Assembly (NCBI RefSeq): GCF_021952865.1
Contig: NZ_CP040792.1
Coordinates: 2,480,001 to 2,544,000 of the forward strand
Direction of reading: 5' to 3'
Length of the DNA stretch: 64,000 bases
Origin: Clavibacter californiensis
GTDB lineage: Bacteria > Actinomycetota > Actinomycetes > Actinomycetales > Microbacteriaceae
Notes under the pieces: model-generated
What the model was told of the DNA's origin: nothing
Database searches by the model: none
Seen by the model: the letters and a program-made list of their open reading frames with translations, nothing else
Translations under genes and position numbers: made by a program
Part shown: positions 1,742 through 11,051 of the stretch, in pieces
Layout: each line of letters starts with the position of its first letter
Position numbering within the stretch: position 1 is the stretch's first letter

Positions 1742-2557
1742 ATGCCAGGAGTCGGCCGCGATCGGAGTCACGTGCAGAGGATCCTCGGTGGCGTGCGCCT
1801 GGTCGCCGCGATCGTCGTGGTCGTCGCGCTCGCGGGCGACTTCGACTACGTGCAGGGCTTCACGACCTTCGCGGCCGAGAACTGGTTCAGCTACTTCACG
1901 ACGCAGAGCGGGATGGCCGGTGTCGTCGTGCTCGCCGCCTCCGGGCTGCAGGCCCTCCGCGGCCGCGCCGAGCCGCCGCTCATGGCCGCGGTGCGCGCGG
2001 TCGTGCTGAGCTACGTCGTGGTGTCCGGCGTGGTCTTCGGCCTCATCGTGCTGGAGTCGAGCTCGCAGGCGTACTACGTCGAGGTGCCGTGGTCGAGCCG
2101 GCTGCTGCACTTCGTGATCCCCGCGTACGCGCTCCTCGACTGGACCCTCGCGCCGGGACGCCCGCGCGTCACGTGGAAGGCCGTCGGCTGGGCGATGCCC
2201 TTCCCGGTGGCCTGGTGCGCGTTCACGGAGGTCCGCGGTCCGCGCGTCGGCTGGTACCCGTACTTCTTCCTGGATCCCGCGCAGGTCGGCGTCCCGTTCG
2301 AGATCGCCGCGTGGCTGGCGCTCGTCGCGGGCGTGCTGGCGGGGGTGTCCGCGCTCGTCGTGGCGCTCAGTCGCGTCCGGCCGGCCGACGGCGGGCCCCG
2401 GAGGCGGACGCACGACGGCGACGCGCCGTGCGGGACGCCCTCCCGGGAGCCCGCGCCGTCGGGTGCCGATGGCGAGGCGGTCGCGGAGAGCGCGGGGGCA
2501 CCGGCGCCCCGGCAGGCGCGGGGATCCGCGGGCGACAGGGAGACCGTCCGCCGCTGA
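1742..2557 (+). CDS. Pr6Pr-type integral membrane protein
   Basis: A 271-residue membrane protein with about six hydrophobic segments between residues 10 and 215. They contain the family-typical phrases NWFSYFTTQSGMAG, LLHFVIPAYALLDW, KAVGWAMPFP and GWYPYFFLDP. These match the Pr6Pr family of bacterial membrane proteins, which has no assigned biochemical role. The last 60 residues are polar, charged and of low complexity, and are probably cytosolic. ATG 1742 gives the longest frame. GTG 1772 has GGAG five bases upstream and begins just before the first membrane helix, so it may be the real start. No obvious operon partner. Confidence 0.7.
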   Translation: MPGVGRDRSHVQRILGGVRLVAAIVVVVALAGDFDYVQGFTTFAAENWFSYFTTQSGMAGVVVLAASGLQALRGRAEPPLMAAVRAVVLSYVVVSGVVFGLIVLESSSQAYYVEVPWSSRLLHFVIPAYALLDWTLAPGRPRVTWKAVGWAMPFPVAWCAFTEVRGPRVGWYPYFFLDPAQVGVPFEIAAWLALVAGVLAGVSALVVALSRVRPADGGPRRRTHDGDAPCGTPSREPAPSGADGEAVAESAGAPAPRQARGSAGDRETVRR

Positions 2558-2620: not shown

Positions 2621-3354
2621 ATGGTCACCGACGACGGAGGCGGCGCTGCCCGACCCGATGACGCGGCACGTGGGCCCGTGCTCGAGCTGCGCTGGCCGTC
2701 GGTGGTGCGGGACGACCCGGATCCGGAGGCCCTCGTGGTCAACGTCGGCGACGCACGCTGGGGCCCGTCGCGTCGTTCCACGTGGTCGGCGGCCTGACGC
2801 CGCGCGGCGGCGTCGTACGCGGCATCGACTTCGCGTCCGTCGACGGGTCGCACGGCGCCGTGCCGCTGGATCCGGGTGACAGCACGCGCGTGCCCGTCCA
2901 CGTGGCCACGTCGCAGTGGCGCGACCTGGAGCCCGGCGAGCACGAGGCACGCGCGACGATGCCCGCCTTGGGGATCCGCACGGCCGACCCGCTGCCGGTG
3001 CGGGTCACGGCCGCGATGATCGCGCGACACGTCCCGGGAGCTGTCACAGCTCTCGGAGCGGCCGCCGGCCGCAGCGCCGTCGAGACGCAGATCTCCGCCG
3101 ACAGGGCACGGCTCGCCGCCGGTGCCGACCTGGAGGCGCTCGGCGCGACGCTCGCGCGGGCGGAGTCCCACGAGGACGCGATCGCCCGCATCGTCGACCT
3201 CGTCGGCGTCGACCGCGACGGAGCCCAGCAGGTGCTCAGCAGCTTCGTCGGCTGGCTGCTGCCGTACGAGATGGCCGAGACCCGGCGCCGCCTGGCGCGC
3301 AGCGAGAGCAGGCGCGACGCGCTCCGGGACGGCCCGGCGGGTACCGCGGTCTAG
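2621..3354 (+). pseudogene. Unknown soluble protein gene split by a one-base frameshift
   Basis: Reading from ATG 2621 gives MVTDDGGGAARPDD…VLELRWPSVVRDDPDPEALVVNVGDARW and then terminates at 2801. A second frame starting near 2761 gives GPVASFHVVGGLTPRGG… and runs to TAG at 3352-3354. The two halves join into one coherent protein of about 244 residues if one base is missing, most likely a G in the run at 2760-2763. The N-terminal half looks like a beta-sandwich domain; the C-terminal half (from about residue 135) is helical and charged. I do not recognise the family. Reinitiation at GTG 2782 could produce the second part alone. The stop overlaps the convergent amine oxidase stop in CTAG. Confidence 0.65.
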
Positions 3355-4844
3355 GGGGTCGGCTCGGCGCTCGGGCCCGGGTCGGGGGTGGCCGTCCCCT
3401 CCGCCAGGAGCTCCGGATCCGCGAACGGCGCGAGCGAGCGCAGCGCCGCCGCCCGCAGCGCCTCGTCGTCCATCGCCGCGATCCGCTCCGCCGCCTCCGC
3501 GCCCACCTCGGCCATGAGGACGGGCTCACCCGAGATCGGCATGAGGTTGTACCAGCGGGTGAAGCGGCCGTCCTCGTCGTAGGAGGTCCAGACCGTGGCC
3601 GTCGTCGACCAGAACGGCTCGGCGAAGCGCAGCCAGATGCGGTCCGCACGGCCGGGGCCGAGGGCGCGGATGGCGACGTCATGCGACGAGGGGAGCGCGG
3701 GGTCGAAGGCGATCGCGCCCTCCTGCAGCACGCCGAGCGGCACGGTGACGACCACGCGGTCGACCGAGAGCGACTCGCCGGATCCGAGCCGCAGCCCCAC
3801 CCGGCCGTTGCCGTACGCGATCCGCGAGACGGTCGACTCCCGCAGCACGTCGATGTCTTGGTCGCGCAGCAGGTGCTGCACGAGGCCCGCGAAGCCGCCC
3901 GTGACGGCGACGTTGCCGACGGGCGCCGGCTCGTCGAGGCCGTGGGCGCCCGAGAGCTCGTCGGACGCGGCGCCGTGGGCGATCGCGACGTCGGTCGCCA
4001 GGAGCGCGGCGAGGCGGGCGGCGGGGGACGCGGCGCCACCCTCGGTGGAGAGGGCGTCGGCGCCGGTCTCGCGCAGGGCCGCGGCGAGGCTCACGGCTCC
4101 CGGCTGCGCGAGGGCCCAGGCGCGCGCGGCGGCGAGGGCGTCGGATCCCGCGCTCGAGGCTTCCAGCACCGCGCCGTCGGGTCCGCGGTCCTCCGCGACG
4201 AGCGCGAGGCCGTAGCGGGTGATGCCGGCGGCCTCGATGGCGTCGCGCAGCAGGTCGTCGCCGTCGGCGGCGATCCAGAGCGCGCCCAGCTCCGCGGGGT
4301 GCGGCCAGTCGGTGCCGCCGGCCGCGCGGATCCGGCCGCCGAGGTCCGCGCGCGCCTCCACGAGGACGACGTCGTGCCCCACGTCGCGGAGGGAGCGGGC
4401 GGCCGCGGTGCCCGCGATGCCGGCGCCGACGACCGCGACGCGCTCGGATCCGGCGCCCGCGCGATCCACCTCGCCCGCCGCGCGGAGCCCCGACGCGTAC
4501 GCGCCCGCGACCGTGCCGGGGCGGTCGGCGCTCGTGGCCTCGCCGGCGAAGAACACGCGGTCCTGGATGGGGCGGGCGAGCGCCTCGCGGTCGGCGGTCG
4601 TGGCGCCGGGTCGGAGGAAGCTGCCGGATCCGCGCGCGAACGGGTCGCCCGCCCAGTCGGAGCGCGCGAAGGCGACGGGTTCGGGGAGGCCGGCTGCTCC
4701 CGCGGTGGGCGTGGGGGTCGGCGTCGTGGAGGGGGTGGCCGTGGGTGTCGCGGGCGTCGGCGTCGTCCGCGTGCACGCCGCGAGCCCGAGGAGCGACAAC
4801 CCCGACACGGACGCGGCGAGGAGGGTGCGGCGGGAGATCGACAT
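3351..4844 (-). CDS. Secreted flavin-dependent amine oxidase with circularly permuted domain order
   Basis: A 497-residue FAD-dependent amine oxidase, predicted to oxidise amines with release of H2O2 outside the membrane. The N-terminus has a twin-arginine motif (RR at 5-6), a hydrophobic core and a lipobox LAAC with Cys24, so it is probably a Tat-exported lipoprotein. A Pro/Thr linker (26-48) follows. The Rossmann FAD site GAGIAG is at 140-145, with LVEAR at about 161 and GGRI at 169. The block normally found at the C-terminus of monoamine oxidases (DPFARGSGSF at 67-76, FFAGEAT at 98-104, GTVAGAY at 110-116) here precedes the FAD site, and the C-terminus ends where that block would normally begin. 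Substrate is unknown. TACGCT lies nine bases upstream of the ATG. Confidence 0.85.
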   Translation of the reverse strand: MSISRRTLLAASVSGLSLLGLAACTRTTPTPATPTATPSTTPTPTPTAGAAGLPEPVAFARSDWAGDPFARGSGSFLRPGATTADREALARPIQDRVFFAGEATSADRPGTVAGAYASGLRAAGEVDRAGAGSERVAVVGAGIAGTAAARSLRDVGHDVVLVEARADLGGRIRAAGGTDWPHPAELGALWIAADGDDLLRDAIEAAGITRYGLALVAEDRGPDGAVLEASSAGSDALAAARAWALAQPGAVSLAAALRETGADALSTEGGAASPAARLAALLATDVAIAHGAASDELSGAHGLDEPAPVGNVAVTGGFAGLVQHLLRDQDIDVLRESTVSRIAYGNGRVGLRLGSGESLSVDRVVVTVPLGVLQEGAIAFDPALPSSHDVAIRALGPGRADRIWLRFAEPFWSTTATVWTSYDEDGRFTRWYNLMPISGEPVLMAEVGAEAAERIAAMDDEALRAAALRSLAPFADPELLAEGTATPDPGPSAEPTP

Positions 4845-4875
4845 GCTCGGGCCAGCGTACCGGGGAGCCGTCGCC

Positions 4876-4881
4876 TAGGGT
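4876..4881 (+). promoter_or_regulatory. -10 element of a leaderless promoter
   Basis: TAGGGT is followed by exactly six bases (CGGAGG) and ATG 4888, so the Hsp15-like gene is probably transcribed from its start codon. Confidence 0.55.
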
Positions 4882-4887
4882 CGGAGG

Positions 4888-5316
4888 ATGCCCGCCGACG
4901 CCGCCCCGCCCCCCGCGCGGCCCGCGGACGCCGCGCAGGCCGCGGTCCGGGTCGACAGCTGGCTCTGGGCCGTGCGGATCTACAAGACCCGCTCGCAGGC
5001 GACGGCCGCCTGCCGGGCCGGGCACGTGAAGGTGGCCAACGAGCGGGCGAAGGCGTCCCAGTCCGTGCGGCCCGGCGACGAGGTGCGCGTGCGCGTCGCA
5101 GGTGCCGAGCGGATCCTCGTGGTGCGCCGCACGCTCGTGAAGCGCGTGGGACCCGCGATCGCCGCGGAGGCGATGACCGACCTCACTCCCCCGCCGCCGC
5201 CGCGCGACGCCGCGCCCGCGACGATCGTGCGGGACCGCGGCGCGGGACGCCCGACGAAGCGCGACCGGCGCGAGATCGAGCGGCTGCGCGACCCGGAGGG
5301 GATGCGCGGGCGCTAG
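4888..5316 (+). CDS. hslR: S4-domain RNA-binding protein, Hsp15-like
   Basis: A 142-residue protein with an S4 RNA-binding domain at about residues 20-80 (VRVDSWLWAVRIYKTRSQATAACRAGHVKV…RPGDEVRV). It is followed by a basic tail containing GRPTKRDRREIERL. That arrangement is the hallmark of Hsp15 (HslR), which in E. coli binds stalled 50S subunits carrying nascent chains and helps recycle them. Length and the tail motif agree with the family. The N-terminal 18 residues are a Pro/Ala-rich extension. It is divergent from the amine oxidase. Its TAG overlaps the stop of the next gene in the shared CTAG at 5313-5316. Family call is strong; the exact cellular role in actinobacteria is inferred. Confidence 0.88.
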   Translation: MPADAAPPPARPADAAQAAVRVDSWLWAVRIYKTRSQATAACRAGHVKVANERAKASQSVRPGDEVRVRVAGAERILVVRRTLVKRVGPAIAAEAMTDLTPPPPPRDAAPATIVRDRGAGRPTKRDRREIERLRDPEGMRGR

Positions 5317-8406: not shown

Positions 8407-9387
8407 TCAGCCCGCCGCAGGCCCGAGCAGCGTCAGCCGCTCGCGGAGCAGCGCGCGGACGGCGTAGGGATCCGCGACGCTGAGCCGCCCGTCTTCCGAG
8501 ACGCCGTCGCGCAGCACGAGCGGCAGGACGGATCGGCGGACGACGAGGGCGCCGCGGTTGCGCCCACGCTCGACCCGCTCGACGGGCTGCGCAAGCGCGT
8601 CGTCCGGGACGACGACCACCGCGGCCGCGAAGCGCACGCCCGCCGAGGCCGCGAGCGAGCGCGCGGCGCCGACCAGCCACGTGACGGGCGCGTCGCCCGG
8701 GGCGAAGGCGCCGTCGGGATCCGCCGCGACGGGCTGCAGCTCGCCGCGCACCAGCTGGACGGCCGTGCCCCAGTCCTCGGAGCTCAGCGCGAAGAGGCCG
8801 GCGGGCGCGAGCACGACGTGGTCGACCTTGCCCGCACTGGCGAGCGGGCGCACGTCGTGGAAGATCGTGGCGCCCATGCCGAGCGACGCCGCGGCCCGCG
8901 CGGTCGCCTCCTCGGCGAGGGCCTTCGCGAGCAGCCAGCGGACGTCGCGCGGGGCGCGGCGCACGAGCTCGGGCGACCAGGGATCCACGCCGAGGTCGCC
9001 GCCCGGCGCGACGCCCTGCCACTCGGCCACGCGGTCGAGGTAGTGGGCGCGGGCGAGCGCGCCCGCGACGCCGTGGACGGCCGCTCCGAGTCGCGTGCCG
9101 GATCCGGGCGCGGGCGCGTACCCGGCGTCGTCCGGGCCGAGCGGGTCGTCGTCCGCGGTCGTCGTGCGCCCCTGGCCCCGGTCGTACGCGGCGCGGTCGT
9201 CGGGATCCCCCACGAGCTCCCACGCGCGCTGCACCGCGTGGAACAGGTGCGCCTCGCCGCCCGTGTCCGGATGGGTGGCGCGCACGAGCCGCCGGTACGC
9301 GGCGCGGAGGGCGGCGACGTCAGCCGCGGGATCCACGCCGAGCACCTCGTACGGCGTGCGGTCGGCGGGGCTCCCCGCGCGGGTCAC
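8407..9387 (-). CDS. J-domain protein with a NERD-like domain
   Basis: A 326-residue protein. Residues about 11-69 are a J domain (TPYEVLGVDPAADVAALRAAYRRLVRATHPDTGG…DRAAYDRG) with the diagnostic HPD, so it should stimulate an Hsp70 (DnaK) ATPase. The middle part includes GMGATIFHDVRPLASAGKVDHVVLAPAGLFALSSEDWG, which resembles the NERD (nuclease-related) domain pattern of a conserved Asp/His-containing beta strand followed by a Lys/Asp position. The final 100 residues are unassigned. There is no zinc-finger or G/F region, so it is not a classical DnaJ. Its ATG overlaps the stop of the upstream Stealth gene (ATGA, 9384-9387), so the two are co-translated. Confidence 0.75.
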   Translation of the reverse strand: MTRAGSPADRTPYEVLGVDPAADVAALRAAYRRLVRATHPDTGGEAHLFHAVQRAWELVGDPDDRAAYDRGQGRTTTADDDPLGPDDAGYAPAPGSGTRLGAAVHGVAGALARAHYLDRVAEWQGVAPGGDLGVDPWSPELVRRAPRDVRWLLAKALAEEATARAAASLGMGATIFHDVRPLASAGKVDHVVLAPAGLFALSSEDWGTAVQLVRGELQPVAADPDGAFAPGDAPVTWLVGAARSLAASAGVRFAAAVVVVPDDALAQPVERVERGRNRGALVVRRSVLPLVLRDGVSEDGRLSVADPYAVRALLRERLTLLGPAAG

Positions 9388-11051
9388 TCGGCCGGAGCGG
9401 CGGGCGCGCCGGACGGGTCGGCGGCGTCAGCGACCTCCGCCTCCCAGGGCGCCGGGATGCCGTAGTAGCGCTCGAGGAACTCCTGCACGCGCGCCTGGCG
9501 CTCGTCGGCCGGCACCTCGGGGAACGATCCGTCGTTCAGGCAGAAGAAGTCCTGCGACCGGCGCTTGAGGAGCCCGGGCAGGAGGTCGAGCCCGGCCCGC
9601 GACGTCGTGTCGACGTAGAGGACCTTGGCGTTCTCCTGCTGCACCGCACGCGCGGTCATCTGGGCGTAGTAGTGGTACAGCGAGTTGGTGACAGAGATGT
9701 CGGTGCTGGAGCGGAAGCGGCTGAGCTGCGTGCGGTGGAAGTCCTCCGCGAACTCCTGCTCGAGCTCCAGCAGCACGCTCTTGCGCAGCGGCGTGGCCGC
9801 GTGCTCGAGGTGACGGGTGATGAGGCGGCCGAAGCGGTCCATGAGCAGGCGCCGGTTGACGCGCGCCGAGTTCTCGAAGCCGCTGCGGTCGGAGTCGTTG
9901 TCACCCAGGCCGATGCGGGTGGACGCCTCGATGAACTTGGTGATCCCGCCGGGCGAGAAGAACATGCCGGGCTGCACGGGGCGGCCGAAGAACATGTCGT
10001 CGTTCGAGTAGAGGAAGTGCTCGCTGAGCCCCGGGATGTGCTGGAGCTGCGACTCGACGGCCTGCGAGTTGTGCGTGGGGAGGGCGGCGGGATCCGTGAA
10101 GAACTCCTCGCTGCGCACGAACGTGACGGCGGGGTGGTCGGCCAGCCACGACGGCTTCGGGGAGTCGGTGACGATGAAGATCCGCCGCACCCACGGCGCG
10201 AACAGGTACACCGAGCGGAGCGCGTACTTGAGCTCGTCGATCTGACGGAAGCGGGCCTCCGAGTCGTCGCCCTCGCCGACCACGACGTCCTTCATGCGCT
10301 CGGCGCGCCGCTTCTGGAACTCGGGGTCGTTGCCGTCGACCCAGGAGAAGACCATGTCGATGTCGAAGGTGATGTCGGACGCCTGCGCGTCGAACATGCC
10401 GCGGAGCGTCTTCCACTCGTGGCCGTACATCTCGACCGTGGTGGGCACGACCTCGGCGGCGGGCAGGATCTCACGGGTGAGCGAGTTCTCGACCGGCCAG
10501 ACGATGGTCTCGCCCTCGAAGCGGAAGAACTGGAGCTCGACCGCGGTGGACGCGCCGTACGCCAGCAGGCCCACCGGCTCGATCCGCGGGCGGTAGAGGC
10601 GGAAGATCCCGGCGTCGGGGTTGTCGGTGAGGCGGCCGTCGGCGACGAGCAGCGGCGGGCGGCGGCGGCCGTCCACCGTCTTGGCGTACAGCGGCTCGTC
10701 GGCGCACGCGGCGACGAGGGCGCGGACGACCGTGTCGCGGTTCTGCACGTCGATGGCGATGACCGGGCGCTCGTCGTTGCCGCGGATCAGCCAGAAGTCG
10801 ATGCCGGTCGCGAGCAGCGCGTCCCGGATGAAGAGCAGGTCGGTCACGAGAGCCTGGTGCGGCGTGAGCGTGCGGTTGACGAGCGTGGCGAGGCCCTTGC
10901 GGACGACCACGTCGGGGCGGTGGTGCGTGGTGGGCCACGTGGCGGGGGCGGGCGCGACCGCGTCGTCCTGGCGGGAGAACTCCTCCTCGCTGGTGGCGGG
11001 ATCGACCGTCGGCTCGAGCGCTACGTTGAACTGCCGTGCGCTGCCCGCCAT
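9384..11051 (-). CDS. Stealth-family sugar-phosphate transferase
   Basis: A 555-residue protein of the Stealth family, which includes capsule hexosyl-phosphate transferases such as SacB. CR1 is at 231-243 (IDMVFSWVDGNDP) and CR2 at about 267-302 (RFRQIDELKYALRS…WVRRIFIVTD). CR3 is at about 328-358 (HNSQAVESQLQHIPGLSEHFLYSNDDMFFGRPV), and CR4 is around 415-450. About 220 residues precede CR1 and may hold a separate substrate- or acceptor-binding domain. Likely role: transfer of a sugar-1-phosphate in cell-surface polysaccharide synthesis. SD AAGGGG lies eight bases before ATG 11051. It is followed by the coupled J-domain/NERD gene. No other polysaccharide genes are adjacent. Confidence 0.88.
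   Translation of the reverse strand: MAGSARQFNVALEPTVDPATSEEEFSRQDDAVAPAPATWPTTHHRPDVVVRKGLATLVNRTLTPHQALVTDLLFIRDALLATGIDFWLIRGNDERPVIAIDVQNRDTVVRALVAACADEPLYAKTVDGRRRPPLLVADGRLTDNPDAGIFRLYRPRIEPVGLLAYGASTAVELQFFRFEGETIVWPVENSLTREILPAAEVVPTTVEMYGHEWKTLRGMFDAQASDITFDIDMVFSWVDGNDPEFQKRRAERMKDVVVGEGDDSEARFRQIDELKYALRSVYLFAPWVRRIFIVTDSPKPSWLADHPAVTFVRSEEFFTDPAALPTHNSQAVESQLQHIPGLSEHFLYSNDDMFFGRPVQPGMFFSPGGITKFIEASTRIGLGDNDSDRSGFENSARVNRRLLMDRFGRLITRHLEHAATPLRKSVLLELEQEFAEDFHRTQLSRFRSSTDISVTNSLYHYYAQMTARAVQQENAKVLYVDTTSRAGLDLLPGLLKRRSQDFFCLNDGSFPEVPADERQARVQEFLERYYGIPAPWEAEVADAADPSGAPAAPAE

Follow-up and report, generated by a model that had tools for sequence, protein, structure and literature searches.

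A circularly permuted relative of the flavin amine oxidases with a predicted Tat lipoprotein signal in Clavibacter and other bacteria

Monoamine oxidases (MAO), LSD1 and the polyamine oxidases are among the most studied flavoenzyme families. In the canonical architecture, a Rossmann motif for flavin adenine dinucleotide (FAD) is followed by the substrate domain and a C-terminal block, and the MAO are anchored by a C-terminal helix. A lysine that is bonded through water to the flavin N5 promotes the use of O2, and passages of a study of the superfamily call it nearly universally conserved (PMC12224317). According to the same passages, some bacterial members are exported dehydrogenases, and NicA2 and Pnao, which are predicted to be exported by the twin-arginine translocation (Tat) pathway, use cytochrome c and avoid O2 (PMC12224317). 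Here, we describe a relative of these enzymes that is encoded in Clavibacter californiensis (contig NZ_CP040792.1) within a stretch of 64,000 nucleotides, in the following called the window. The gene is located on the minus strand at positions 3351-4844, and in its product the block that is normally C-terminal stands at the front, behind a predicted Tat lipoprotein signal. The open reading frame (ORF) and its parts are as follows:

3351..4844, minus strand: whole ORF, circularly permuted relative of the flavin amine oxidases (ATG start, 497 amino acids; Pfam and LSD2 matches)
4776..4844, minus strand: twin-arginine signal SRRTLL and hydrophobic stretch, residues 1-23 (from the sequence)
4773..4775, minus strand: Cys24, the residue of the lipobox LAAC that is predicted to be lipidated (sequence pattern)
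4689..4772, minus strand: linker rich in proline and threonine, residues 25-52 (from the sequence)
4461..4688, minus strand: moved C-terminal block (W..DPFARGS, FFAGEAT, GTVAGAY), residues 53-128 (LSD2 match, reading of the blocks)
4446..4460, minus strand: short joint connecting the moved block to the first Rossmann strand, residues 129-133 (comparison of the joint over 89 permuted rows)
4260..4445, minus strand: FAD Rossmann motif (GAGIAG, EAR...GGR), residues 134-195 (Pfam match, reading of the blocks)
3411..4259, minus strand: remaining FAD and substrate domains, residues 196-478, ending where canonical proteins run on into the C-terminal block (Pfam and profile comparison)
3639..3641, minus strand: Arg402, which takes the place of the flavin-N5 lysine of amine oxidases (alignment to LSD2)
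3354..3410, minus strand: C-terminal tail, rich in proline and threonine and unconserved, residues 479-497 (alignment)

The superfamily motifs GxGxxG ... GGR and the FAGE.T / GTV.GA block are both present in the 497-residue protein, with DPFARG starting at residue 67, FFAGEAT at residue 98, GTVAGAY ending at residue 116, and GAGIAG starting at residue 140. The order is moved block, Rossmann motif, remainder (C-R-M), and not the canonical Rossmann motif, remainder, C-terminal block (R-M-C). An earlier note on this DNA had described this minus-strand ORF with the block at the front and the end of the protein at the point where the block normally starts. That layout was confirmed and the motif positions stood, but the loop motif, spelled GTVHGAY in the note, reads GTVAGAY.

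The permutation was also evident in three kinds of profile and sequence matches. The Pfam model Amino_oxidase (PF01593) matched the protein in two stretches with 161.6 bits (cut-off 19.8), and in the best of them residues 143-474 corresponded to positions 1-364 of the 443 model positions. With phmmer, human LSD2 (4gu0_A) was matched in three pieces of rotated order, namely residues 134-172 to positions 337-375 of the LSD2 chain, 313-470 to 528-690, and 53-126 to 700-773. The E-values of the second and third pieces were 4.5e-14 and 2.7e-9, and, therefore, the rotated order is not due to chance. When a profile of 51 permuted proteins was compared with one of 7 canonical proteins, permuted columns 88-428 were aligned with canonical columns 5-351 (probability 100, E 1.9e-49). 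The match stopped at the end of the conserved region of the permuted proteins; this comparison gave a single alignment, which comprised the rest of the fold and not the front block. Together with the many genomes described below, the rotated matches support the circular permutation proposed in the earlier note, and, at the sequence level, the permutation is practically certain.

The LSD/spermine-oxidase branch (LSD2, 4gu0; LSD1; spermine oxidase, 7oxl; PF01593) has FAD and substrate domains that are recognisable throughout in the permuted proteins, and LSD2 was the best solved relative (E 4.3e-91, profile built from 21 permuted proteins). In contrast to this branch, the permuted proteins have rotated blocks, a leader with a Tat lipoprotein pattern and, in Clavibacter, an arginine in place of the flavin-N5 lysine. 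The MAO belong to the same superfamily and share the C-terminal motifs, and MAO-B was among the structure matches. However, the predicted anchor of the permuted protein is N-terminal and is joined immediately to what is the C-terminal block in the MAO. NicA2 and Pnao are likewise of the same superfamily and predicted to be exported; as far as the passages of PMC12224317 go, nearly all such proteins keep the lysine, whereas the Clavibacter protein has an arginine and no cytochrome neighbour was found by the permuted gene.

To survey the architecture, 132 loci were read. The ORFs of 100 loci were C-R-M, 26 were R-M-C and 3 were partial, and none of the 132 loci contained an ORF with two C blocks. 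Eleven of the 100 C-R-M loci belonged to genomes that had been reached by a second route. Without these, 89 permuted rows remained, on which the counts of the lysine, the export signals and the joint are based. The chain is opened behind the last helix of the substrate domain and ahead of the proline-containing stretch that precedes W..DP, and the proline motif at the cut was found in 83 of the 89 permuted rows. The joint between the block and the Rossmann strand has a length of 3-14 amino acids (median 5), and the tail past the last modelled residue has a median length of 10 and a maximum of 46 amino acids. The order of the blocks and these joints support a fold that would be the usual one, with the old termini linked and the new ones placed in a surface loop.

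The selection acting on the gene was quantified with 17 Clavibacter orthologues (136 pairs). The median ratio of nonsynonymous to synonymous substitution rates (dN/dS) was 0.25 overall, and the values for the five regions were 0.28 for signal and linker, 0.12 for the moved block, 0.16 for the Rossmann region, 0.33 for residues 196-300, and 0.22 for residues 301-478. The moved block had the lowest value and residues 196-300 the highest. These ratios demonstrate purifying selection on the permuted gene that is strongest in the moved block. In addition, the identities of the moved block and of the rest of the protein were compared using Mantel tests. The correlation was 0.73 for 80 permuted rows and 0.71 for 73 rows without Clavibacter, and in neither case did any of 1000 shuffles reach a value as high. 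Such a correlation is what one expects of a block that has belonged to the protein all along.

Two explanations would make the unusual order only apparent. The front block might have been added or captured, while a normal C-terminal block would be encoded elsewhere after a duplication or in a split gene. However, a significant second C block was not found in any open stretch of at least 25 amino acids in the window and 20 other loci that were scanned, and block and remainder diverge in step, which also disfavours capture of a foreign block; we regard this explanation as highly improbable. An assembly artefact is even less probable, as the same order is present in 17 of 18 Clavibacter genomes, in 61 of 199 Microbacteriaceae genomes and also in a second phylum. 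The earlier note had named a duplicated or normal C-terminal block and a misassembly as outcomes that would overturn its reading. The first was searched for in the 21 scanned loci and not found, the second is contradicted by many independent genomes with the same order, and both were dropped. In a Rhodothermota genome, a locus that at first seemed to be an intermediate with two blocks was found, upon reading, to encode an ordinary R-M-C protein, the leader of which resembles that of a Tat lipoprotein.

The distribution of the permuted gene was analyzed by searches of whole genomes. In these searches some candidates per genome were scored with strict thresholds, so that the numbers of permuted genes are lower bounds. 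The genome of C. californiensis itself gave one match at E <= 0.001. In Clavibacter, 17 of 18 genomes had a nearly full-length match (81-100% identity), and the 18th, an assembly of 620 contigs, had a short Rossmann match only. In a sample of 199 Microbacteriaceae genomes, 78 were matched at 1e-20. In 61 of them, the match (one per genome) spanned both ends of the query, and all 61 loci read as C-R-M. In one further genome (G029), the two halves of a permuted gene lie on two contigs. Outside of the family, permuted genes were read in two other families of the same order (L105; L106, L107), in four families of the same class (L115, L116, L117, L119), and in two families of the phylum outside of the class (L102, L103; L104, L160, L161). 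The last of these families had a permuted match in 3 of 42 genomes and a canonical match in 1. Among 200 genomes of a second phylum, presumably Pseudomonadota, 13 were matched at 1e-45, and three of the genes were permuted (L167-L169); the ranges of the other 10 matches were of the canonical type, and two of these were read. The permuted order was not seen in a sample of 198 presumed Bacteroidota genomes, 15 of which were matched at 1e-45: all 16 places listed began at model position 66 or later and are canonical-like, and the four that were read are canonical. Matches on plasmids comprised 14 records, 8 of which spanned both ends of the query, and the two that were read (H1 from Haloarcula, H3 from Nostoc) are canonical. 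Judged from these searches, the permuted form is widespread and not a one-off.

Five of the permuted genes (L105, L106, L107, L168, L169), from what appear to be Actinomycetota and Pseudomonadota, represent a second permuted kind, which has WLQQ after the Rossmann region and keeps the lysine. L105-L107 lack an export signal pattern. L105, L107, L168 and L169 unite with a support of 100/99 in the fourth of the trees described next, from which L106 was absent.

To estimate the number of origins, four trees were built on the blocks placed in canonical order, with the rows thinned to 67, 47, 39 and 39, respectively. After the first tree, the canonical rows L051, L053, L123 and L126, which were long-branched, near copies or of odd make-up, and many permuted rows were left out, and the fourth tree was also built without the canonical rows L124 and L127. 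The four trees needed 5, 4, 5 and 6 changes of layout, and the permuted rows were scattered over several groups. Well-supported branches forced three changes in the first tree, which was a quick one with very long branches, and one change in the three careful trees. A single permuted clade occurred in 0% of 200 bootstrap trees in the three careful trees. An approximately unbiased test did not reject one clade of all permuted rows (p 0.15, 0.079 and 0.18), and neither did it without the cytoplasmic-looking group (p 0.19 and 0.21). The deep branches of the permuted/canonical trees are weak. A wider reading is that the permuted form is a broad, undescribed bacterial architecture with more than one origin at the same loop, one branch of which became Tat-exported surface lipoproteins and, in Microbacteriaceae, lost the O2-activating lysine and turned to another acceptor or substrate; we consider this reading possible, but doubtful. 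In all four trees, L084 from the Microbacteriaceae genome G054 grouped with L115 of another family and not with its own family, which hints at a transfer.

Export patterns were scored in the up to 100 residues ahead of the block, with start codons that were not fixed one by one. The window protein contains both the twin-arginine motif SRRTLL and the lipobox LAAC with Cys24. The pattern RR.[FLIVM] was found in 87 of the 89 permuted rows, and at least one of these, located in L106 upstream of its start, is probably a chance occurrence. The combined Tat-plus-lipobox pattern was found in 84 rows, in agreement with the signal proposed in the earlier note; the five rows without it are L105-L107, which look cytoplasmic, L116 and L117. 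In the 84 fitting rows, the linker has a median length of 23 amino acids (13-37) and consists of proline, threonine and serine to about 66%. On the basis of these patterns, the product is likely a Tat-exported, lipid-anchored FAD protein. L159, on the minus strand of a Rhodothermota metagenome-assembled genome, combines the canonical order with a leader that resembles that of a Tat lipoprotein.

Next, the residue at the flavin-N5 position was determined by alignment to LSD2. A lysine was present in 26 of 26 canonical rows, and the 89 permuted rows contained K (23), T (22), R (21), V (9), S (6), Q (3), A (3) and L (2). The lysine was kept in 14 of 79 Microbacteriaceae permuted rows versus 9 of the 10 others, and all 17 Clavibacter rows had an arginine, which is Arg402 in the window protein at the place of the N5-bonded lysine of O2-using amine oxidases. 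Among rows added later and inspected by eye, L160, L161 and L167-L169 have the lysine, and the canonical L159 has a glycine, so that the canonical rule has exceptions. The alignment demonstrates a loss of the flavin-N5 lysine in Clavibacter and in most Microbacteriaceae copies. The statement that all core motifs are kept, made in the earlier note, is thus correct for the FAD motifs, which are intact, but not for this lysine.

The effects of replacing the lysine have been characterized in MAO A, and the passages of PMC8009472 describe K305R as inactive, K305M and K305S as having a 200- and 100-fold lower kcat, and K305Q as having nearly wild-type activity; in K305M the amine was still oxidised and reoxidation by O2 was impaired (PMC8009472). 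In addition, a superfamily member with a glutamate in place of the lysine had the slowest O2 reaction that is reported in the passages of PMC12224317. Because Clavibacter has an arginine and the exchange of lysine for arginine inactivates MAO A, an amine oxidase that produces H2O2 is not the best guess, and the amine-dependent H2O2 production expected in the earlier note is doubtful. The Clavibacter protein is probably not a normal O2-using oxidase.

Our best explanation, which we hold to be fairly probable as a whole, is a permuted, Tat-exported, lipid-anchored FAD fold with, in Clavibacter, a dehydrogenase-type use of another acceptor. The chain would have been opened in the stretch before the C-terminal FAD/substrate block, and the block joined by few residues to the first Rossmann strand. 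The protein would fold with its FAD in the cytoplasm, be exported by Tat and be lipidated on Cys24. It would then hang on the outer face of the membrane by the proline/threonine linker, which would enter at the moved block. Owing to the arginine, the Clavibacter protein would use O2 poorly and, with an amine or some other small molecule as the substrate, deliver the electrons to another acceptor. For this last part, a dehydrogenase with an acceptor other than O2 is our first choice, at roughly even chances. Several points weigh against our explanation. Neither a cytochrome nor another electron acceptor was found as a conserved neighbour in 21 neighbourhoods, which yielded only the membrane protein described below. 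Known dehydrogenases such as NicA2 keep the lysine, as stated in passages of PMC12224317, and, therefore, its loss is not their route to becoming a dehydrogenase. The nearly wild-type MAO A variant K305Q shows that not every substitution disables the enzyme (PMC8009472), and the full inactivity of K305R would fit a non-catalytic protein as well as a dehydrogenase. Furthermore, a permuted chain was not seen in the Protein Data Bank among the matches listed, the best 60 of 110 solved chains; in none of these did the best stretch reach into the front block, as all of them started at model position 82 or later.

Two other functions were considered. The protein could be permuted and yet catalytically normal, generating aldehyde, ammonia and H2O2 at the cell surface. 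The intact FAD motifs and the lysine-keeping permuted rows agree with such an ordinary amine oxidase, and most tested Tat-exported members without an adjoining cytochrome c react fast with O2 (passages of PMC12224317). However, the arginine of all 17 Clavibacter rows corresponds to the inactive MAO A variant (PMC8009472), and we consider an ordinary oxidase unlikely. To the same low degree we would expect an FAD-binding protein that is past amine oxidation and serves as a sensor, a scaffold or a redox-silent surface lipoprotein. The flavin-N5 position varies in Microbacteriaceae among K, T, R, V, S, Q, A and L, as a relaxed site would, and residues 196-300 are the least constrained region (dN/dS 0.33). 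In contrast, constraint is strong on the moved block (0.12) and on the Rossmann region (0.16), and substrate-domain motifs such as PLGVL and PFW are largely conserved. The dehydrogenase-type use of another acceptor was retained as the first choice for Clavibacter.

In the 21 neighbourhoods, one plausible neighbour emerged among the ORF groups common to at least three. It is a membrane protein encoded convergently with the permuted gene, and it was present in 13 neighbourhoods, namely in the window and in 12 of 13 other Microbacteriaceae loci, versus none of 7 from outside of the family. The remaining groups common to at least three overlap the permuted gene or the membrane-protein gene in different reading frames. 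In NCBIfam, the membrane protein of the window and one relative carry the name Pr6Pr (NF038065):

1742..2557, plus strand: Pr6Pr family membrane protein, recurrent convergent neighbour in Microbacteriaceae (NF038065, 211 bits, cut-off 30)

Among the rows listed, Pr6Pr was convergent within 2.5 kb in at least 50 of the 61 permuted Microbacteriaceae genes, and the neighbourhood comparison revealed it for 2 of the remaining 11. L084 has no Pr6Pr neighbour. Because Pr6Pr is present in 168 of the 199 Microbacteriaceae genomes and a convergent pair is not an operon, a joint function of the two proteins is only a lead. Outside of Microbacteriaceae, the search for neighbours gave no shared gene that looked informative, and the word Pr6Pr was not found in the open-access papers searched.

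Other features of the window were as follows. Between the permuted gene and Pr6Pr, a GTG-start ORF of 190 amino acids (2782-3354, plus strand) overlaps the last 4 bases of the permuted gene and had no Pfam match at 0.01. On the other side, the permuted gene and a gene for an S4-domain protein (4888-5316, plus strand) start back to back, 43 bases apart (4845-4887). Farther away, the ORF at 9384-11051 (minus strand) resembles, by its stretch FSWVDGNDPEFQ, Stealth-type sugar-phosphate transferases.

A description of a circularly permuted flavin amine oxidase was not found in open-access papers, the part of the literature that was covered, and the main text of PMC12224317 has no word beginning with "permut". 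In passages of PMC4432964, 54 circular permutations are mentioned, without names, among Pfam domain cases that were set aside; therefore, an earlier, unnamed sighting may be among them. For the window protein, none of the 25 NCBIfam families listed (of 52) reached the respective cut-off. As its layout recurs in many other bacteria, the protein represents a genuine form of this intensively studied enzyme family that apparently has not been described before. An annotation with domain models alone would name such genes amine oxidases and hide both the permutation and the loss of the lysine. As the permutation is kept in two phyla, it reveals where the chain of this fold tolerates a break and which of its ends may be linked. 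The permuted proteins form a natural set for testing chain order against FAD loading and Tat export, and the lysine loss in one permuted branch beside lysine-keeping relatives is a natural test of how the use of O2 is controlled.
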